From contig SYFT01000006.1 in assembly GCA_005799825.1 (NCBI GenBank), forward strand, positions 1-52,129: a stretch of DNA of 52,129 bases. The letters are read 5' to 3'. Position numbers and translations under genes: made by a program. Shown one piece after another: positions 4,789-35,829 of the stretch. This DNA comes from Acidobacteriota bacterium (GTDB lineage: Bacteria > Acidobacteriota > Vicinamibacteria > Vicinamibacterales > SCN-69-37). Numbering within the stretch: position 1 is the first letter of the stretch; every line of letters begins with the position of its first letter. A model generated the notes under the pieces. That model was given only the letters and a program-made list of their open reading frames with translations. It made no database searches and was not told the origin of the DNA.

Positions 4789-5007
4789 ATGCTCAAAGGC
4801 ACTCGCACAGCCGTCATCCACCGCATTCAGCCGATGTCGATTCACGGGCAGATTTCGCTCGACGTCTTCTGGACAGATCCAGAAGATCCCGAAGGCGAAA
4901 TCCGTCACGCGCGCGTTGGGGACGAAGCGGTGCCACGCCACATGGCGGCCGGAGACACGGTGACGCTGCACTACCTCATGGGCATGGTGACCGAGATAAC
5001 CAAGTAG
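4789..5007 (+). CDS. small hypothetical protein
   Basis: 72-aa ORF following the PQQ-repeat gene by 3 nt and ending just before a repeat array and terminator. Confidence 0.55.
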   Translation: MLKGTRTAVIHRIQPMSIHGQISLDVFWTDPEDPEGEIRHARVGDEAVPRHMAAGDTVTLHYLMGMVTEITK

Positions 5008-5008
5008 T

Positions 5009-5038
5009 CCTGGGTCCAGAGTCCAGAGTCCAGGGTTC
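5009..5038. repeat. heptamer array (GTCCAGA-type, period 7)
   Basis: gggtcca gagtcca gagtcca gggttcg starting 1-2 nt after the stop codon at 5005-5007. Confidence 0.85.
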
Positions 5039-5041
5039 GTG

Positions 5042-5071
5042 GATCGCCTGGCTTCGCCGGCGGTCTTTTTT
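5042..5071 (+). terminator. Rho-independent-like terminator
   Basis: gatcgcctggcttcgccggcggtc stem-loop followed by ttttttt. Confidence 0.65.
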
Positions 5072-6309: not shown

Positions 6310-6367
6310 TTCACACGAGGCATGTAGGACTGAAGGATTCCCTTCACTCCTTCACGCCTCGTGTGAA
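6310..6367 (-). promoter_or_regulatory. 12-bp perfect inverted repeat between hyuB and the MFS gene
   Basis: TTCACACGAGGC (6310-6321) and GCCTCGTGTGAA (6356-6367); inner TGAAGG-ATTC-CCTTCA; overlaps the hyuB stop codon. Confidence 0.7.
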
Positions 6368-7924: not shown

Positions 7925-9963
7925 GATGCCCGCCCTTTCCGGGCCAGCACATTGCCATGGCCATCCACCTTGAATGTCCAGCCGGGCGGGACCACGGCCG
8001 TCGCTTCGCCGCCGGCGATGACTGCCGGACCGGATGCAAACGACCCGGGTTTCAAATCATCCCAGCGGTAGAACGCGACCTTCACGTTCTTGCCGGTGAA
8101 ACGGCCCGGACGAACTGCTGACGGCTTCGCCTTTGATGCGCCGCGGACTTTGGTGAACGGCAGTTTCGGCTTGTCGGTGATGCCTGCGGCTGAAACGCGG
8201 ACGTTGACCACTTCAGTGGCGCGTGCCGGGTTTGAGTAGCCGTACGTCTTGCCGTGCTGCTGGTCGAATACTTTTCGATAGTCAGCGGTCAGCGGCAATG
8301 TGATTTCGAACGACTGTCCGACGTATCGCACGTCAAGAGACAGCGTAATCACTTGACGCTTCGCAGGGAACCCTTCGGCCTCGAGTTCGGCCCTGGCAGC
8401 CGAGACGAGTGGCGCGCACAAGCGCTCCAGGTCCTTCACGGCTACTTGTGAACTGGCCTTGAGCACGCTGGCCGAATAGTCCTTCGTGACGTCGGCCACC
8501 AGCATCCCCAGCGCAGATAAGACGCCCGCATGCCTGGGCACAATCACCGTCTTGATTTCCAGTTGCTGCGCGATCTCGCAGGCGTGCATACCGCCGGCGC
8601 CGCCGAAGGCCAGCAACGCGAAGTCTCGCGGGTCGTGGCCGCGTTCCACTGACACCACTCGAATCGCGCGCTCCATATTGGCGTTCGCCACTCGCACAAT
8701 GCCGTCGGCGAGCTCGGGTACCGACAGCCCGGTCTGCTTCGCAAGCGCGGCCGCCACCCGTTGCGTGCGGACGGCGTCGATCGTCATGCGACCACCCAGG
8801 AAGTAGTCGGGGTCGAGCCGGCCGAGCAACAGGTTCGCGTCGGTGACGGTCAGTTCCTCGCCAACGCCGTAACAAACAGGACCCGGATTCGCGCCCGCGC
8901 TCCGTGGGCCGACCCGCAGCGCCCCACCGGTGTCGAGGTACGCGATCGATCCCCCGCCGGCACCCACAGTGTGGATGTCGATGAGGGGCAACCGAACCGG
9001 GAAATCTCCCACCTTCGAATCCGTCGTTCTCCCAATCCCATCGTCTATGAGACTGACGTCGGTGGACGTGCCGCCCATATCGAAGGAGATGACGCGCGGA
9101 AATCCCGCCGCATGGGCCACAGCGCAGGCCCCGACGACACCGGCAGCCGGACCGGAGAGCACGGTTCGGACAGCCTGCGCCCGCGCGGCGCCTGCCGAGA
9201 TGCACCCGCCGTTCGACTGCATGATCGATAGTCGGGGTCCCGGAGTCCCGAGGTCCCGTCGAGTCTTGCTTGTCTGGGTCCTGGGGTCCTGGAGTCCTGG
9301 GGTCAGGGCCCGCTCCAACGTGCCGAGATACCGGTCCATCAGGGGCGTCACGTACGCGTTGACCACCGTGGTGCTCCAGCGCTCGAACTCTCGGTACTCG
9401 GGCAGTACCTCGTGCGATGTGCACACAGCGAGGCCCGACTGCCGCAGCAGCGTAGCCACCTGTTGTTCGTGTGCGGGATTTGCGTATGAATGCAGGAGGC
9501 AGACGGCGACGATGGTGGCGCCGCGGTCATGGATGAAACGAGCGAGGCGGTCCACTTCCTCTTCGTTAACCGCTAGGAGCACGGCGCCAGAGGCGTCAAG
9601 CCTCTCAGTGACTCCGAACGTCAGGTCCGGGTCAACCAGCGGAGGCCGCGGCGCGACGAAGACGTTGTAGAGCTCGGGGCGGGTCTGGCGGCCAATCTTC
9701 AGGACGTCTTCGAACCCGCGCGTGGCGACTAGTGCCACTTGCGCACCCTTGCGTTCCAGTACTGCATTCGTGGCCACGGTGGAGCCATGGACGACGTCGA
9801 GGGACGTGGTCTGGCCCGTGAGGTGTCGAATGCCGTCGAGAATCGAGCGCGATGGGTCGTCAGGCGTGGACCGCTGTTTGTGAACGACGAGGCCGTCCGG
9901 CCCGAGGTGGACGAAGTCGGTGAACGTGCCACCGGTGTCGATGCCGATACGTGAACGCACCAA
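7921..9963 (-). CDS. hyuA: hydantoinase A/oxoprolinase family protein with an in-frame repeat-derived insertion
   Basis: RIGIDTGGTFTDFV; VHGSTVATNAVLERKGA; ISFDMGGTSTDVSLI; LLAFGGAGGMHACEIAQ. Confidence 0.93.
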   Translation of the reverse strand: MVRSRIGIDTGGTFTDFVHLGPDGLVVHKQRSTPDDPSRSILDGIRHLTGQTTSLDVVHGSTVATNAVLERKGAQVALVATRGFEDVLKIGRQTRPELYNVFVAPRPPLVDPDLTFGVTERLDASGAVLLAVNEEEVDRLARFIHDRGATIVAVCLLHSYANPAHEQQVATLLRQSGLAVCTSHEVLPEYREFERWSTTVVNAYVTPLMDRYLGTLERALTPGLQDPRTQTSKTRRDLGTPGPRLSIMQSNGGCISAGAARAQAVRTVLSGPAAGVVGACAVAHAAGFPRVISFDMGGTSTDVSLIDDGIGRTTDSKVGDFPVRLPLIDIHTVGAGGGSIAYLDTGGALRVGPRSAGANPGPVCYGVGEELTVTDANLLLGRLDPDYFLGGRMTIDAVRTQRVAAALAKQTGLSVPELADGIVRVANANMERAIRVVSVERGHDPRDFALLAFGGAGGMHACEIAQQLEIKTVIVPRHAGVLSALGMLVADVTKDYSASVLKASSQVAVKDLERLCAPLVSAARAELEAEGFPAKRQVITLSLDVRYVGQSFEITLPLTADYRKVFDQQHGKTYGYSNPARATEVVNVRVSAAGITDKPKLPFTKVRGASKAKPSAVRPGRFTGKNVKVAFYRWDDLKPGSFASGPAVIAGGEATAVVPPGWTFKVDGHGNVLARKGRAS
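9232..9304. repeat. octamer GTCC-core array inside hyuA
   Basis: tcggggtc ccggagtc ccgaggtc ... ctggggtc ctggagtc ctggggtc, period 8. Confidence 0.9.
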
Positions 9964-12274: not shown

Positions 12275-15202
12275 ATGAGAATCACTGGAGTTTCCCACCA
12301 AAGTTGGTGGATGTCGGCCGTCGGTCTGGCCGTCTTTATCCTGGCGGTGGCCACGGCCCCGGCCCAGCAGTCGGTGACCGAGACCCGGGACCCGAAGCAG
12401 GCCCAGGACGAAGAATTCGCGAAACTCTACGAGGAATGGACGGGAAATTCCATTTACGGCAGCCCGCTGGTGGACCATCTACCCAAGGTGCCGGGCATCC
12501 CGACCCCCAAGGACGTGCTCGGGTACTACATCGGAGCTCCAGGCAAACTCACCTACTACGAAGACATTCTCAACTATTACCGGGCGCTGGCCGCGGCCAC
12601 GCCCCGGGTCCGGATTGAGTCCATCGGGAAGTCGGACGAGGGCCGGGAACTGGTGGTGGTCTGGGTGTCTTCAGACGCCAACATCAAGGGCCTGCAGGGC
12701 AACCGCGACAACCTGGCCAAGCTGGCCGATCCCCGGGGCCTGAGTGAACCGCAGATCAAGAACCTCATCGCCACCACCAAGCCGCACTACCACCTGATGG
12801 GCGGCCTGCATTCGGGCGAACTCGGCCCCCCCGAGATGCTGATGGAGCTGGTCTACCGTCTGGCTGTTGAAACGTCGCCGCTCATCTCGCAGATTCGCAA
12901 CAACGTGATCGTTTCGGTCACGCCGGTGGCCGACGCCGACGGGCGCGACCGCAACCTCGATTGGTTCTACAAGGGTCTTGATGAGACGGCGGCTGCGGCC
13001 GCCGGTCAGCCGGGCGCCGTGGGTGCCGGCGGGCGTGGTGGTGGCGCAGGCGTGCCCTACTGGGGCAAGTACGTGTACCACGACAACAACCGCGACATTA
13101 ACCTCTCGCAGATGCAGATGCGCGGCCTGGGCGACTGGTACTTCACCGCCCACCCGCCGATCATGCACGACCTGCACGAGTCTTTGACGCTGCTCTACAC
13201 CTACAGCGGCGGTCCGCCCCAGAACCCGAACCTGGACCCCATCCTTTTTTCGGAACTGCCCTTTTTCTCGAACTTCGAGATGGCGCAGATGACCAAGTAC
13301 GGCATGCCGGGCGTCTACACGCACGCATTCATGGACGGCTGGTCGCCGGGTTACCTCGGCTCGCTCGCCTACAACCACAACGGCCTGATGAAGATGTACG
13401 AGACGCAGTCGGGCCGTGACCTTCCGAGGCCCGGTACGCCGGCGGTGGCCGAGGCGGCTCCTGGCGCGGGCGGTGCAGCGCCGCCTGCCGCAGTTGGTGC
13501 CGGCGGTGGCCGTGGTGCGGGACGAGGCGCACCGCCAGCAGGAGCCCGAGGTGCGGGTCCCGGAGGAGGGGCGCCCGGTGGCGGGCGCGCCGGCGGTGTG
13601 CCGACGGGTCGCGGCGGCGCTCAGCCGCGCGAGTGGTATCGCGGCCTGCCGGTGCCGCCCGATGCCGTCGCCAACTTCACGCGTCGCAACAACGCCAACT
13701 ACATGCAGACGGGCGTGCTCTCAGCCCTGCAGCTCACGTCGATGTTCCCGAACCTTGTGGTCGAGAACTTCTACACGAAGACCGCCAACTCCATCCGGCG
13801 CGGCCTCGACAATCCGCCCCACGCGTATGTGATTCCCGTGCAGCGCGACATGACGCGCGTGGCCGAACTCATCCGCATCATGGGCATCCAGGGCATCGAA
13901 GTGCGCCAGGCCGACGCGAAGTTCAAACTCGGCGAGGAAACGTTCCCGGCAGGCTCGTACCTCGTGAAGGCTGGCCAGCCCTACTGGAACCTCGCGAAGA
14001 ACCTTTTTGAGAAGCAGGACTATCCCGACGAACGCCTCTCCACGTACGACGACTCGGGGTGGACGATGGGCCCGGCGATGGGCGTGGATATCCGCGAGAT
14101 CAACAACAAGGACGTGCTGGAGGTGGAGACGAAGGTCGTTAAGACGTCCACCCACGCGGCTCGCATCATCGGCACCGGCACGGCCGGCATCGCGGTGGCG
14201 CACCTGGGTTCGAACAACATGGTGTCGTTCCGCTACGCGGTGCGAAACGTGGCGATGAAGGTGGCCGAGGCCAGCTTCACGGCATCGGGCATGGACTTTC
14301 CTGCCGGCTCATTCATCGTAGCGACGTCGTCCGACATCGCGGCTGTTCGCGCTGCCGTGGAGAAGTTCGGCCTCACGGCTGCCACGCTGGCGTCTATCCC
14401 CACGGTGGCAACGCACGACGCTGATGTGCCGCGTGTGGCCATCTACTCGCAGTGGGGCGGCACGCAGGAATTGGGTTGGTACCGGCACGCGTTTGACCAG
14501 TTTGGCATCCCCTTCGACCTCATCTACAAAGAGCGGGTGATGAAGGGCAACCTGAAAGCCGACTACGACGTGATTCTCATGGCGTACCAGGGCATCAATC
14601 GCCAGTCGGTGATGCAGGCGCCAGGCGCCAGGCCTGTGCCCTACATGAAGACCGACAAGTACAAGTTCCTGGGCATGTATGGCGAATCCCCGGATATCAC
14701 GGGCGGCTTCGGCCAGATGGGCGTGGATGCATTCGCGGCCTTCCTTGAGGGTGGCGGCACGCTCATCGCCGCGCACAATGCGGTGCGGTTCCCGATCGAG
14801 TTCGGCTTCGCGAAGTCTGTGGACACCGATCAGGTGGCCGGGATCACGGCGCAGCGCCCGCTCGTGCAGGCCGAGATCTCAAAACCCGACCATCCGGTGT
14901 TCTACGGCTACGGCAACAAGAGCTTCGGCGTGAAATATGTCAGCGGTCCGTTCCTGCGCGTCGGCATGTCGGACCAGGAGAACATCCTCGCCCGTTACGT
15001 CGGCGGCGATTCGTCCGTCATCTCCGGCCTGATGACCGGCGCGGATGTGCTCTCGCAGAAGGCCATCGCGGTTGACGTACCCGGCGCCCGCAACGGCAAA
15101 GGCCGCGTGCTCCTGTTTGCCAACAACCCGATCTATCGCTGGCAGAACCACGGCGAGTTCAACATGATCTTCAACTCGATCGTGAACTGGAACGACAGAT
15201 AG
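12275..15202 (+). CDS. M14 family metallopeptidase (zinc carboxypeptidase-like), exported
   Basis: ATG at 12275 (MRITGVSHQSWWMSAVGLAVFILAVATAPAQQ) with upstream aggag; GGLHSGELGPPEM zinc motif; IMHDLHESL. Confidence 0.88.
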   Translation: MRITGVSHQSWWMSAVGLAVFILAVATAPAQQSVTETRDPKQAQDEEFAKLYEEWTGNSIYGSPLVDHLPKVPGIPTPKDVLGYYIGAPGKLTYYEDILNYYRALAAATPRVRIESIGKSDEGRELVVVWVSSDANIKGLQGNRDNLAKLADPRGLSEPQIKNLIATTKPHYHLMGGLHSGELGPPEMLMELVYRLAVETSPLISQIRNNVIVSVTPVADADGRDRNLDWFYKGLDETAAAAAGQPGAVGAGGRGGGAGVPYWGKYVYHDNNRDINLSQMQMRGLGDWYFTAHPPIMHDLHESLTLLYTYSGGPPQNPNLDPILFSELPFFSNFEMAQMTKYGMPGVYTHAFMDGWSPGYLGSLAYNHNGLMKMYETQSGRDLPRPGTPAVAEAAPGAGGAAPPAAVGAGGGRGAGRGAPPAGARGAGPGGGAPGGGRAGGVPTGRGGAQPREWYRGLPVPPDAVANFTRRNNANYMQTGVLSALQLTSMFPNLVVENFYTKTANSIRRGLDNPPHAYVIPVQRDMTRVAELIRIMGIQGIEVRQADAKFKLGEETFPAGSYLVKAGQPYWNLAKNLFEKQDYPDERLSTYDDSGWTMGPAMGVDIREINNKDVLEVETKVVKTSTHAARIIGTGTAGIAVAHLGSNNMVSFRYAVRNVAMKVAEASFTASGMDFPAGSFIVATSSDIAAVRAAVEKFGLTAATLASIPTVATHDADVPRVAIYSQWGGTQELGWYRHAFDQFGIPFDLIYKERVMKGNLKADYDVILMAYQGINRQSVMQAPGARPVPYMKTDKYKFLGMYGESPDITGGFGQMGVDAFAAFLEGGGTLIAAHNAVRFPIEFGFAKSVDTDQVAGITAQRPLVQAEISKPDHPVFYGYGNKSFGVKYVSGPFLRVGMSDQENILARYVGGDSSVISGLMTGADVLSQKAIAVDVPGARNGKGRVLLFANNPIYRWQNHGEFNMIFNSIVNWNDR

Positions 15203-15235
15203 CGTCCAGGGTCCAGAGTCCAAGGTCCAGAGTTC
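15202..15235. repeat. heptamer array, left arm of inverted pair
   Basis: gcgtccagggtccagagtccaaggtccagagttc directly at the M14 stop codon. Confidence 0.9.
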
Positions 15236-15241
15236 CTTGAG

Positions 15242-15269
15242 CCGGCACCTTTCCGTGCCGGGACTTTTT
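15242..15269 (+). terminator. stem-loop terminator between the inverted heptamer arrays
   Basis: CCGGCAC-CTTTCC-GTGCCGG followed by gacttttt. Confidence 0.7.
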
Positions 15270-15300
15270 CCAAGAAAGCCCTGCGAAGCAGCTCCGCGAA

Positions 15301-15337
15301 CCCTGGACTCTGGACTCTGGACTCTGGACCCTGGACG
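15301..15337. repeat. heptamer array, right arm of inverted pair
   Basis: ccctggactctggactctggactctggaccctggacg ends exactly at the stop codon (15338-15340) of the next gene. Confidence 0.9.
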
Positions 15338-16384
15338 CTAAGCCCTGAGGTGCTCCGGTATCCAGGGCCGCTCGTTGCGCTTCGCCCACCATTTTGCGGC
15401 GAAGAGCATGAGCGCGGTGAACGCGAAATAAGCGAGCGCGGTTTCGCCGAGCGTCAGCGAACGCTTCCAGGCGGCGCTGAACATACCGTACGCCAGTTCC
15501 ACGTGCACCCAGTACACGAACAGCGACGTCTGCCCGAACAGCACCACGGGGCTCCACCGGTGCGCGTTCGCTCGCGACATCCACCGCCACGCCCCCGACA
15601 GCGACATCGTCATCACCCCGATCCTGATGAGGAAGAAGGACAGCGAGGTGGTCCAGAAATTCGAATTGAATGGCGACGGCACAAACGTGGCGATGATGCC
15701 GAAGATGACGATAGCGGCGCCGGCTTGTGCGAGTTGAACATGGAAGCGACGTTCTTCAGTGACGAGGCGCGAGCGGGCGATCCAGACGCCGATAGCACAA
15801 CCAACCAGAACAAACGCCAGCCAGGGGAAAAGCGCGAACTGCCCCCATCCGCCGTTGGGCCGGATGTAGGCCTCGAGCCGAGGGTGCAGCAACGTGGGCC
15901 ACCACCACTCGCGCGAGAGCGGGGAAATCACGACAAGGATGGCTGCGGGCACCAGCAGACATGCCACGCGACGTTTCAGCGCGTCACTGCGTCCCCAGCA
16001 CCATGCGGTGACCACCATACCCAGGCCGAGGATGTTGAGGATATCGGGCTTGAAGATGCTGTCCACGCGCGCCCAGGGATTGCCGAGGAACGACTGCAGC
16101 CGGAAGATGTGCGCGAACAGGAAGACCTGCCAGCCCCGTTTTTGCAGGGCCCAGGCCGCTTCACGGAGCGACTGCCCTTTTCGCTGCTGCGACGCTGCGG
16201 CAAATGGAATAGCCAGGCCGGCGAGAAACAGGAACAACGGCGCGGCCGTGCCGCCGATGAGCGCCAACGCCGTGAACACGCCACCCTGGCGCGCAGCCTC
16301 GGTGCTCCACGCATCCACCACGTGCCACTCGATCATGAACAGCACAGCCACACCGCGAAGCCAGTCGATGTAGGGGCGACGCAC
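15338..16384 (-). CDS. DUF1624/heparan-alpha-glucosaminide N-acetyltransferase-like membrane protein
   Basis: MRRPYIDWLRGVAVLFMIEWHVVDAW...GGTAAPLFLFLAGLAIPFA; multi-TM. Confidence 0.8.
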   Translation of the reverse strand: MRRPYIDWLRGVAVLFMIEWHVVDAWSTEAARQGGVFTALALIGGTAAPLFLFLAGLAIPFAAASQQRKGQSLREAAWALQKRGWQVFLFAHIFRLQSFLGNPWARVDSIFKPDILNILGLGMVVTAWCWGRSDALKRRVACLLVPAAILVVISPLSREWWWPTLLHPRLEAYIRPNGGWGQFALFPWLAFVLVGCAIGVWIARSRLVTEERRFHVQLAQAGAAIVIFGIIATFVPSPFNSNFWTTSLSFFLIRIGVMTMSLSGAWRWMSRANAHRWSPVVLFGQTSLFVYWVHVELAYGMFSAAWKRSLTLGETALAYFAFTALMLFAAKWWAKRNERPWIPEHLRA

Positions 16385-26498: not shown

Positions 26499-26501
26499 TA
26501 C

Positions 26502-26525
26502 TCGGGGTCCCGGAGTCCCTGGGTC
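26502..26525. repeat. octamer array, left terminal repeat of four-helix-bundle element
   Basis: tcggggtc ccggagtc cctgggtc, 3 nt after a stop codon. Confidence 0.88.
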
Positions 26526-29333: not shown

Positions 29334-29374
29334 GCCCCCTGAACCCGCCTCCGCCAGGGCTACGGCGAGGCAAG

Positions 29375-29397
29375 CCCTGGACTCTGGACTCTGGACG
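29375..29397. repeat. heptamer array (GTCCAGA-type)
   Basis: ccctggactctggactctggacg, 1 nt from the stop codon (29399-29401). Confidence 0.85.
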
Positions 29398-32586: not shown

Positions 32587-33501
32587 ATGGGTCTCCGCCG
32601 ACCTCTTTGGATGACGACCGCGGCGCTAGGGCTATGCGCTGCGGCGACGTGGCCGGCGCCTGTGGATGCCACTGGGCAGGGCCAGCAACAACCCACTTTC
32701 CGGTCGGCCACGCGCACCGTTCCAGTCTACGCCACCGTGACTGACGCCACGGGGCGGCTGGTGCCTGACTTGGAACAGGGCGACTTCGAGATCTGGGACA
32801 ACGGCAAGAAGGTGGCCATCTCCCTCTTCGAAAACTCCATCCAGCCCATCACTGTGGTCGTCATGCTCGACACGAGCGGCAGCATGACGATGAATCTGGA
32901 TTTGTTGAAGCAGGCGGCGACGCAGTTCGTCATCAGACTTCTGCCCGCAGACAAGGCGCGCATCGGGAGCTTCAGCGACAAGATTCGAGTGACCCCTGCG
33001 GGATTCACGAGTGATCGCGACGAGTTGGTGCGCATCCTGCGCGATGACATCCAGTACGGGAATCCGACGGCGCTCTGGGATGCGACCAACGTCGGAATGG
33101 AGGCGCTCAAAGACATCGAGGGCCGCAGGGTGGTGCTCGTCTTCACCGACGGTGCGGACAACTGGAGCCGCCTTGACGAGGGCGACATCCTAGCGCGCGC
33201 CCGAAGTGAAGAATTCCTGATCTACGCGATCGGTCTGCGGTCGCGGATGCGCGGCCAGGGGGTCACGCGCCCCGATGCGGGGCTGCGGAAGGTTGCCGAG
33301 GAAACGGGCGGTGGATACTTCGAGCTGACCCGCACCGACGAGCTGAATTCAACGTTCAGCCGGGTGGCCGCGGAGCTGCACAGCCAATACGTCCTGGGGT
33401 TCACCCCGCTGGCGGTGGACGGCAAGGTCCACAAGCTTGAGGTGCGGATTACTAGGCCGGGCCTGGTCGCCCGCGCCAGAAAGAGTTACGTGGCCAAATG
33501 A
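32587..33501 (+). CDS. VWA domain protein (acidobacterial VWFA-related family, TIGR03436-like)
   Basis: VVMLDTSGSMTMNLDLLKQAATQFVIRLLPADKARIGSFSDKI; VLVFTDGADNWSR. Confidence 0.92.
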   Translation: MGLRRPLWMTTAALGLCAAATWPAPVDATGQGQQQPTFRSATRTVPVYATVTDATGRLVPDLEQGDFEIWDNGKKVAISLFENSIQPITVVVMLDTSGSMTMNLDLLKQAATQFVIRLLPADKARIGSFSDKIRVTPAGFTSDRDELVRILRDDIQYGNPTALWDATNVGMEALKDIEGRRVVLVFTDGADNWSRLDEGDILARARSEEFLIYAIGLRSRMRGQGVTRPDAGLRKVAEETGGGYFELTRTDELNSTFSRVAAELHSQYVLGFTPLAVDGKVHKLEVRITRPGLVARARKSYVAK

Positions 33502-34427
33502 TTCGCCGACTCCCCAACGCCATCCTCGCCTTCACTGGCGCCGCCACTGTAACCGGAGCGCTTGCACTCTCGGCTGCTCCTGATGTCGCGACCCCTCAAC
33601 AGGTAATGCAGCCAACCTTCAAGTCTGGTACGCGCACAGTGCCCGTGTACGCCTCGGTGTTTAATGAGGATGGCCGGTTGGTGCCGGGCCTGGAGCAATC
33701 GGACTTCGAGATTTACGACAACGGCAAGAAGCAGGCCGTGACGATCTTTGACAATAAACCCATTCCGTTCTCAGCCGCGTTGACGCTGGACTCGAGTGTC
33801 AGCATGGAGATGAACCTTCCGTTCATGCAGGATGCGGCGGTCCAGTTTGTGATTCGGCTCGCCCCGGAAGACAAGTCTGTGGTGGGGTTCTTCAATTCCA
33901 AGATCCAGTTCAGCCCGGGCCTGACCAACGACCGCGACAGCCTGGTCAGCTATATCCGCAACAACATGACGCGGGGCAACTCCACACGCCTGTGGGACAG
34001 CGTTGATGCCGCGATGGATCAACTGACGGACGCCCTGGGACGCCGTGTGGTAGTGGTGTTGACCGATGGTGACGACTTCGCCAGCAGTCGCAGCAACGGG
34101 GACATCCTCGAGCGCGCCCAGCGTGAAGACGTCATGATCTACACGCTGGGCATCGAGTCGTATTACCACAATGGTGAACGATGGACGCTGTCTCGGCCTG
34201 GCGGTGCATTCAAGCGCCTGGCAGCGGAGACGGGCGGTGGGTTCTTTGAGCTGAAGAAGTCAGCCGAGCTCAACTCCACATTCACGCGGGTGATTGCGGA
34301 GTTGCATAGCCAGTACGTGCTGGGCTTCTCGCCCACGATAATGGACGGCAAGGCGCACAAACTCGAAGTGCGCCTTGCCAAACCCGGCCTCACCGCCCGC
34401 GCCCGCAAGTCCTACGTGGCTAAATAA
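33498..34427 (+). CDS. VWA domain protein, tandem paralogue (TIGR03436-like)
   Basis: ALTLDSSVSMEMNLPFMQDAAVQFVIRLAPEDKSVVGFFNSKI; overlaps previous stop (atga). Confidence 0.92.
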   Translation: MIRRLPNAILAFTGAATVTGALALSAAPDVATPQQVMQPTFKSGTRTVPVYASVFNEDGRLVPGLEQSDFEIYDNGKKQAVTIFDNKPIPFSAALTLDSSVSMEMNLPFMQDAAVQFVIRLAPEDKSVVGFFNSKIQFSPGLTNDRDSLVSYIRNNMTRGNSTRLWDSVDAAMDQLTDALGRRVVVVLTDGDDFASSRSNGDILERAQREDVMIYTLGIESYYHNGERWTLSRPGGAFKRLAAETGGGFFELKKSAELNSTFTRVIAELHSQYVLGFSPTIMDGKAHKLEVRLAKPGLTARARKSYVAK

Positions 34428-34441
34428 GGGGATCCACACAG

Positions 34442-34557
34442 GGGGACGGGTGTGTTTTCCACAGAACACCGCAATTTGGGGACAGGTCTCAGATAAACTT
34501 CACCCGCTGAGACCTGTCCCCAAATTGAGGTGTTCTGTGGAAAACACGCCCGTCCCC
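34442..34557. repeat. 51-bp near-perfect palindromic (MITE/REPIN-like) element
   Basis: Arms 34442-34492 and 34507-34557, 49/51 complementary, 14-nt loop. Confidence 0.9.
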
Positions 34558-35829
34558 TTCTCTCGCCGCCAATTTCTTTCAACGAGTGCCCTGGGCGCGG
34601 GTGCGCTCGCCGCAGGGTGTGCCGGCACACCGGAGCCCGCGCCGGCAGCCGCCGCCGAGACGCCCGCGTTTCTCAAGGGCCTGACGCCCATGACGGCCGG
34701 CGTCGTGCCGATTGGCGACGACGAGCGGCGGGCGAGGATTGCCAAAGCCCAGAAGCTCATGGCCGAGCAGAAGCTCGATGCCATCTTCATGGAGGGCACC
34801 GCCAGCTGCTTCTACTTTGCCAATATGCGCTGGGGCCAGAGTGAACGCACCTTCGGCGTCGTCATTCCCGCCAATGGCGAACTGGCCTACGTATGCCCTG
34901 GATTTGAAGAGGACAGGGCGCGCGAAATGATCACGTTCGGCAACGACGTGCGCGTCTGGCAGGAAGACGAAAGTCCCTACAAGCTGATCGCCGACATCGT
35001 CCGTGATCGAGGGGTACGACATGGCCGTATCGGCATCGAAGAGCGCGTGCGGTTCTTCATTGCCGACGGCATCAAGAAGGCGTCATCGCTGGAGTTGGCG
35101 GACGCCACGCCGGTGACGGCCGGGTGCCGGATGTACAAGACGGCGGCCGAGATTGCGCTGATGCAGCGCGCTAACGACGTGACCATTGAGGCGTACCGGG
35201 CAGCGCTGACAACGATGAAGCCTGGGATGACTCAAGGCGAGCTGAGCGGTAATATTGCCGCCGCATTCAAGGCACTCGGCTATACGGGCGGCGCGAGTGC
35301 GCAATTCGGCATCTACACGGCGTTCCCGCACGGGAGCGCCACGCCGCAGACGCTGAAAGAAGGCGACGTGGTGATGATCGACGGTGGCATGAGCTGCGAA
35401 GGGTACGCAGCCGACATCACGCGAACGGTGGTGGCGGGCAAAGCCACGACGCGACAGATCGAGATCTGGAATTTGGAGAAGCGCGCGCAGGATGCGGGCT
35501 TCGCCGCCGCAGTGATTGGCGCTCCATGCGAGAACGTTGACATCGCCGCCCGCAAGGTCATCGTGGACGCGGGGTTTGGTCCCGGCTACAAGGTACCAGG
35601 CCTGCCCCACCGCACGGGACACGGCATCGGCATCGAAGGGCACGAGTGGACGAACTTCGTGCTCGGTAACAAGACGCCGCTCGCGCCGGGCATGTGTTTC
35701 AGCGACGAACCCACCGTGGCGATTTACGGAGAATTTGGCATCCGACTCGAAGATTGTCTCTTCATGACTGAAGCCGGTCCAAAGTTCTTTACCAAGCAGA
35801 GCATTGCCATTGACCAGCCTTTTGGCTGA
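34537..35829 (+). CDS. M24 family metallopeptidase (Xaa-Pro peptidase) with Tat-like signal
   Basis: GTG start: MENTPVPFSRRQFLSTSALGAGALAAGCAG; GDVVMIDGGMSCEGYAADITRTVV; PHRTGHGIGIEGHE. Confidence 0.92.
   Translation: MENTPVPFSRRQFLSTSALGAGALAAGCAGTPEPAPAAAAETPAFLKGLTPMTAGVVPIGDDERRARIAKAQKLMAEQKLDAIFMEGTASCFYFANMRWGQSERTFGVVIPANGELAYVCPGFEEDRAREMITFGNDVRVWQEDESPYKLIADIVRDRGVRHGRIGIEERVRFFIADGIKKASSLELADATPVTAGCRMYKTAAEIALMQRANDVTIEAYRAALTTMKPGMTQGELSGNIAAAFKALGYTGGASAQFGIYTAFPHGSATPQTLKEGDVVMIDGGMSCEGYAADITRTVVAGKATTRQIEIWNLEKRAQDAGFAAAVIGAPCENVDIAARKVIVDAGFGPGYKVPGLPHRTGHGIGIEGHEWTNFVLGNKTPLAPGMCFSDEPTVAIYGEFGIRLEDCLFMTEAGPKFFTKQSIAIDQPFG

Follow-up and report, generated by a model that had tools for sequence, protein, structure and literature searches.

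A palindrome at the start of an M24 peptidase gene

Within the window (the whole 52,129 nt stretch of DNA analyzed), a long palindrome separates a VWA-domain gene from an M24 peptidase gene, and its right arm contains the GTG with which the peptidase frame opens (Table 1). The earlier note had described a near-perfect palindrome with arms of 51 nt, and the pairing of 49 of the 51 arm positions around a 14 nt loop bears this out. The left arm is composed of an outer block (GGGGACGGGTGTGTTTTCCACAG), a 13 nt variable core (AACACCGCAATTT) and an inner block (GGGGACAGGTCTCAG). The outer block reads GTG GAA AAC ACN CCC GTC CCC and is free of stops.

The GTG opens a frame of 430 amino acids, (V/M)ENTPVPFSRRQFLS..., with Creatinase_N (PF01321) and M24 (PF00557) domains; the closest solved relative of the protein is a proline dipeptidase. 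Seven element-encoded residues are followed by a Tat motif, SRRQFL, and a lipobox-like AAGC. At the level of sequence, this agrees with the claim of the note that the start lies in the right arm and that (M)ENTPVP is repeat-encoded ahead of the Tat motif. The hexamer GAGGTG ends 4 nt before the GTG, and an alternative in-frame start, TTG at 34525-34527, is likewise inside the right arm.

Table 1. Features at the M24 peptidase locus, with positions in the window
Feature	Position	Strand	Evidence
VWA-domain gene upstream of the palindrome	33498..34427	+	Same neighbour in related genomes G001 and G002; marks the orthologous site
Left arm of the palindrome	34442..34492	+	49/51 complementary to 34507-34557; related arms elsewhere in the genome
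Loop, 14 nt	34493..34506	+	Loop sequence varies among copies
Right arm, with RBS-like site, start codon and (M)ENTPVP codons	34507..34557	+	Sequence
GAGGTG, Shine-Dalgarno-like hexamer from the right-arm variable core	34527..34532	+	Sequence; both G001 arms share the core base; putative function
GTG start codon in the right arm	34537..34539	+	Sole start ahead of the Tat signal apart from TTG 34525; putative use in vivo
M24 peptidase (prolidase-like) gene, Tat/lipoprotein signal, first 7 codons element-encoded	34537..35829	+	PF00557, PF01321; prolidase structures; dN/dS 0.048 vs G001

The first of the two arm mismatches, at arm position 10 (34451/34548), is a silent ACA/ACG (Thr) difference in the coding arm. 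The second is at arm position 30 (34471/34528), where the right arm supplies the A of GAGGTG. Both arms of the G001 ortholog carry the matching base at this position, and the right arm of the genome studied here (G000) keeps it; thus, the left arm of G000 is the one that changed.

As RNA, the palindrome is predicted to fold with -114.6 kcal/mol, compared with -56.2 +/- 4.0 for shuffled sequences (z -14.6). We found no consensus sigma-70 promoter at or inside the element and no intrinsic terminator or terminator-like site there. An Rfam scan of the element returned nothing above threshold, the sub-threshold matches being mostly miRNA hairpin models. No clear target-site duplication was found at the site, and in G001 a 12 nt tandem (GTCCCCCTCTCC) lies immediately outside the element.

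A family of related hairpins

A search of the genome with the element as query returned additional complete palindromes (C103:83148, C110:57455, C104:5814 and C1:4011) as well as single arms. In a second subfamily, the arms are ~33 nt long and have the outer end GGGGACGGGTGT in common, followed by CGATCTGTGGAAAACTC. The outer-end pattern (≤1 mismatch) occurs 37 times in the genome, as against 2 times for the reversed control. Many of the 37 occurrences are paired arms of one element, and the genome contains roughly two dozen related elements, a lower bound from searches and retrieved stretches of the genome. The palindrome is therefore not single-copy.

In family elements, two inverted units build a single hairpin. 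The GGGGWSAS motif is present in the inner block as GGGGACAG. When the arm sequences were checked for the GTAG (or GGAG) tag of classical REPs, GTAG was absent, and the ends read GGGGACGGG. Several copies are intergenic, and a coding role is not universal in the family. DNA matches were detected in 7 of 60 genomes searched, from the same genus and one sister genus, with a patchy spread. An exact 21-mer scan of GTDB contigs returned four contigs, all titled Acidobacteria.

The M24 site in related genomes

The palindrome is present in the closest relative, G001, whose M24 ortholog is 94% identical and has the same N-terminus, reading VENTPVPLSVPLSRRKFLS. G002 (ortholog 85% identical) has no palindrome, and its native start is exactly at the element position, where the start region reads GGAGGTTACC-GTG-CCC-ATC-SRRRFLE. 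In detail, 36 nt past the stop of the VWA gene of G002, GCGGAGGTTACC-GTG-CCC-ATC-SRRRFLE provides a native ribosome-binding site and GTG, and an in-frame ATG 21 nt upstream of this GTG is an alternative start. The G004 ortholog (72%) is also element-free and begins M-NRREFLG. No MENTPVP-type N-terminus accompanies the palindrome-free state in G002 or G004. When the sites are aligned, the element end CCGTCCCC falls on the ancestral CCGTGCCC, with the result that the former start codon is now GTC. An occupied site in G001 and native starts at the empty sites of G002 and G004 support the proposal of the earlier note that the element replaced the original start.

We infer that, before G000 and G001 split, a copy of a mobile hairpin inserted at the start of the M24 peptidase gene and took out the gene's own start region, Shine-Dalgarno site and GTG included. 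The replacement would have come from the element itself, with GAGGTG of the right-arm variable core and then GTG of the conserved outer block. The resulting protein would open with (M)ENTPVP, encoded by the element, and run straight on into the old Tat/lipoprotein signal. A copy that lands in the right frame at a gene start would restore translation with a short leader, and the insertion was probably tolerated because the outer block contains no stop.

Element-encoded ends and inserts at other genes

The M24 case is one of a recurrent set and is not unique to this gene. The arm that opens the M24 frame supplies the same GTG-ENTPVP start to purN, a DUF4126 gene and an aldolase-like gene, and for each of the three an element-free relative has a native start. 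The N-termini of PurN are MANAVENTPVPLCVLISGRGSN in G000, MANSVENTPVPL in G001 and MTISVEKTPVPL in G004, with a worn version in G002 (MADCVGKTPIPL) and an element-free one in G006 (MSAGGTPIAILISGRGSN); at purN, a core-derived ATG lies upstream of the GTG in the same frame. The DUF4126 protein of G005 opens VENTPVPF, and the native MSPEHVAAF is found in G000. The aldolase-like protein of G005 opens VENTPVPL, with the native MPLSPRSPYPVV in G000 and MSTVMILRTPYPVV in G003 and G006. The start-donating accident is likely to have been kept at these three genes in the same way. An element at C110:83182, by a metallo-beta-lactamase-fold gene, was left out of the set of donors because no clear start was found in it, although the frame runs open from there.

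The shorter-armed subfamily appears to persist as N-termini, in-frame inserts and a gene fusion. In G000, G001 and G004, it encodes the N-terminus of an EamA transporter, where G003 has the native MTRIDALLVLM and G006 MTRIDGLLVLM. It likewise encodes the LpxK N-terminus of G000 and G001; the copy in G004 has diverged, and G002 lacks one. In-frame insertions occur in the unrelated conserved genes hutH, uvrC and metH, and also at coxA-coxC, all with element-free relatives. The hutH insert is present in G000, G004 and G001 and absent from G003, G005 and G006. The uvrC insert is present in G000, survives as remnants in G002 and, at the end of a contig, in G005, and is absent from G003 and G006. 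The metH insert, between the homocysteine and pterin domains, is present in G000 and absent from G001, G002, G003 and G006. In G000, coxA and coxC are one open frame joined by two tandem copies (L017 902-3016, minus strand); element sequence also joins them in G004 (L227), and in G002 and G005 they are separate genes with a stop between. At the other end of a protein, the C-terminal residues of PyrF are element-encoded in G000 and not in G001.

A broader possibility, which we regard as doubtful, is that the family constitutes a portable initiation cassette whose GTG-ENTPVP start can be reused, some copies also bringing a Shine-Dalgarno site of their own in the fast-varying core; unrelated genes would have recruited it repeatedly, with selection favouring forms that make harmless protein. 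Compared with dinucleotide shuffles, the conserved outer blocks are not unusually free of stops (P about 0.4). They thus give no sign of selection for a coding element, which goes against the clause on harmless protein.

Separately, the palindromes at the LpxK N-terminus differ by species: they are of the GGGGACGGGTGT type in G000 (L262) and G001 (L257), AAAAGACGTCGGGTGTC in G006 (L273) and a third type, GAGCTCGGAGGCGAATTTC, in G003 (L274). This N-terminus looks like a hotspot for unrelated coding palindromes. A further palindrome family (AAAAGACGTCGGGTGTC...) is apparently nested in the short-armed element of G001 hutH (L205) and lpxK (L257), and is free-standing in G000 C88 (L051 about 1145-1205).

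Proposed translation from the element-borne start

In the interval from the upstream region to the conserved Tat signal, GTG 34537 and TTG 34525 are the only starts, and both are in the right arm. Between G000 and G001, the M24 gene has a dS of 0.72. The 40 codons directly after the element have 13 synonymous and 4 nonsynonymous changes (omega 0.093), which argues that the signal peptide is still translated and selected. Purifying selection has been maintained on the gene, including its signal peptide. As the native start is lost and the signal peptide selected, we argue that the donated start is used: the element now seems to serve as the translation start, with initiation in the cell probably at GTG 34537. 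Initiation would not be straightforward, because the Shine-Dalgarno site and GTG would sit in a very stable stem in a transcript with both arms, and no consensus promoter was found inside the element. As such a transcript would hide the start, a promoter within the element or active unwinding would be needed.

An extremely stable stem that hides the start is also what could be expected if the hairpin were chiefly cis-regulatory for the peptidase (as a terminator, an RNase III site or a lock on translation) and encoded the N-terminus only incidentally, and G001 keeps the palindrome despite far-diverged synonymous sites. We nevertheless think this unlikely, given that the palindrome is multi-copy and occurs at unrelated genes in unrelated positions, that the G002 and G004 orthologs manage without it, and that neither an Rfam family above threshold nor a terminator-like site was found.

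Less probable still is that translation starts downstream, at ATG 34690, or far upstream, at TTG 34375, so that the residues ascribed to the element would be an artefact of annotation. In favour of this, the hairpin would hinder initiation, and many N-terminal REPs have been argued to be untranslated, with the start downstream (Di Nocera et al., PMC3733652). However, a start at ATG 34690 would lose the Tat/lipoprotein signal, the stretch with the excess of synonymous changes; TTG 34375 is within the upstream gene, and a stop in the G001 loop closes its frame; and the GTG-ENTPVP frame is used at three other genes. That the palindrome is an assembly artefact (fold-back chimera) is hardly credible and was rejected: the genome is a draft of 111 contigs, and palindromes of this kind stand at or near the ends of several related contigs, but the arms are non-identical, like structures occur at many loci in several genomes, and G001, assembled separately, carries the palindrome at this position with differences peculiar to it.

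We consider it highly probable that the palindrome is a non-autonomous mobile hairpin of RAYT/TIRYT type, belonging to this genus of uncultured Acidobacteria, that replaced the M24 start before the G000/G001 split. Judged from sequence, the evidence for this mobile hairpin comprises multiple copies, before and after states, purifying selection, a copy beside the sole Y1 transposase gene and concerted change of the arms.

A candidate transposase and concerted change of the arms

The earlier note had likened part of the palindrome to those often found near REP-associated tyrosine transposases (RAYTs). Exactly one Y1_Tnp gene is present in the whole genome (C15:1453-2061; PF01797, 42 bits, cut-off 23), and it encodes the HUH motif NHWHLV and the tyrosine motif YVERNA. 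The sole NCBIfam match of the protein is the REP-associated tyrosine transposase model, at 63 bits and below the cut-off of 80; no solved relative was found by sequence at E 0.001. A single family arm (C15:1303-1358) lies 94 nt upstream of the transposase start. Inverted copies on both sides of the gene were not found in G000, which has the upstream copy only; homologs from the sister genus (G008, G011, G013) have GGGGWSAS motifs on both flanks. This link holds in that a family arm lies just upstream of the only Y1_Tnp gene, but the nearest type is TIR/TIRYT (GGGGWSAS) and not the classical GTAG REP. The transposase gene adjoins purN in G000, G001, G002, G004 and G006 and therefore appears to be vertically inherited and not itself jumping. 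The transposase may move the elements.

Across ten full long-armed elements, the 13 nt core, constant in length, is 93% identical between the arms of one element versus 48% between elements. At the M24 locus, G000 and G001 differ by two changes that are identical in both arms and three in one arm only; the simulated chance of at least two symmetric changes is about 0.001. Copying of one arm from the other would explain the concerted change, and we suggest that the arms were homogenised by hairpin-templated copying; compensatory selection is also possible. Compensatory change is known from REPINs (PMC3116915), and perfect palindromes have been discussed as products of template switching (PMC6649704).

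Relationship to known palindromic elements

TIRYT/TIRtron repeats were described by Di Nocera et al. (2013; PMC3733652) and correspond to subclass 2.1 of Quentin et al. (2018; PMC6006769). The GGGGWSAS motif comes from that work, in which an arrangement with the motif on both flanks is termed a TIRtron (PMC3733652); TIRYT-type repeats are reported also in the acidobacterium Koribacter. The likeness lies in a GGGGWSAS repeat by a Y1 tyrosine transposase gene and in dispersed copies, many of them inverted pairs. In contrast to TIRYT/TIRtrons, the G000 transposase has a copy on one side only, there are two subfamilies of long-armed hairpins with a core that is variable but arm-matched and of constant length, and coding use is recurrent. 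REPINs (Bertels and Rainey, 2011; PMC3116915) resemble the family in that two inverted units form a hairpin, in the linked single-copy RAYT and in the compensatory changes between sides. However, the acidobacterial elements have no GTAG tag, have much longer arms and few copies, and are often inside genes or at gene ends.

The RPEs of Rickettsia, as the reviews that we draw on describe them, are palindromic mobile elements of about 100-150 bp that lie in frame in unrelated conserved genes (Ogata et al., 2000, as reviewed in PMC10969869 and PMC2229807). The acidobacterial palindromes likewise lie in frame within unrelated conserved genes, but they belong to another phylum, appear to differ in sequence and have a candidate transposase; moreover, the long-armed subfamily is mainly a start donor, with the native start visible in element-free relatives. 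CGTC is found near the ends of both RPEs (compared by description) and the acidobacterial elements, but is too short to count. Intragenic and gene-terminal REPs include in-frame copies in genes such as excision-repair genes, REP ends that serve as stop codons and some N-terminal cases (Di Nocera et al., 2013; PMC3733652). Whereas the N-terminal cases were mostly judged possibly untranslated, the M24 gene has lost its native start and has a selected signal peptide. The family thus works like Rickettsia RPEs and intragenic REPs, while its build is nearest to TIRYT-linked TIR repeats and is not that of the classical GTAG REP.

Earlier papers describe palindromes that lie in frame, stop codons supplied by REPs and a signal peptide formed in part by a MITE. 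In the open-access literature, we found no earlier report in which a transposase-linked palindrome had repeatedly replaced native starts and element-free relatives were available for comparison. Rickettsia RPEs and REPs already provide examples of palindromes in coding genes; what is new is that start codons are donated repeatedly, with the states before and after visible and a candidate transposase alongside. Where REP-like repeats coincide with annotated gene starts, they have so far mostly been set aside as possible mis-annotation. The family offers a small collection of natural experiments on the making of new protein ends by small mobile DNA, and on how ribosomes initiate within a strong hairpin.

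Other repeats in the window

An unrelated palindrome at window 6310-6367 has 27 nt arms that are 89% complementary and a 4 nt loop, and overlaps, at 6344, the 3′ end of a gene frame on the minus strand. Repeats of the GGACTCTGGACTCTGGAC type are dispersed, in either orientation, at 5007-5071, 15200-15340 and 29365-29396, and similar ones at 9229-9296 and 26499-26525. At 32587-34427, two tandem VWA-domain genes share 72% identity over their last 205 nt and are probably an old duplication.
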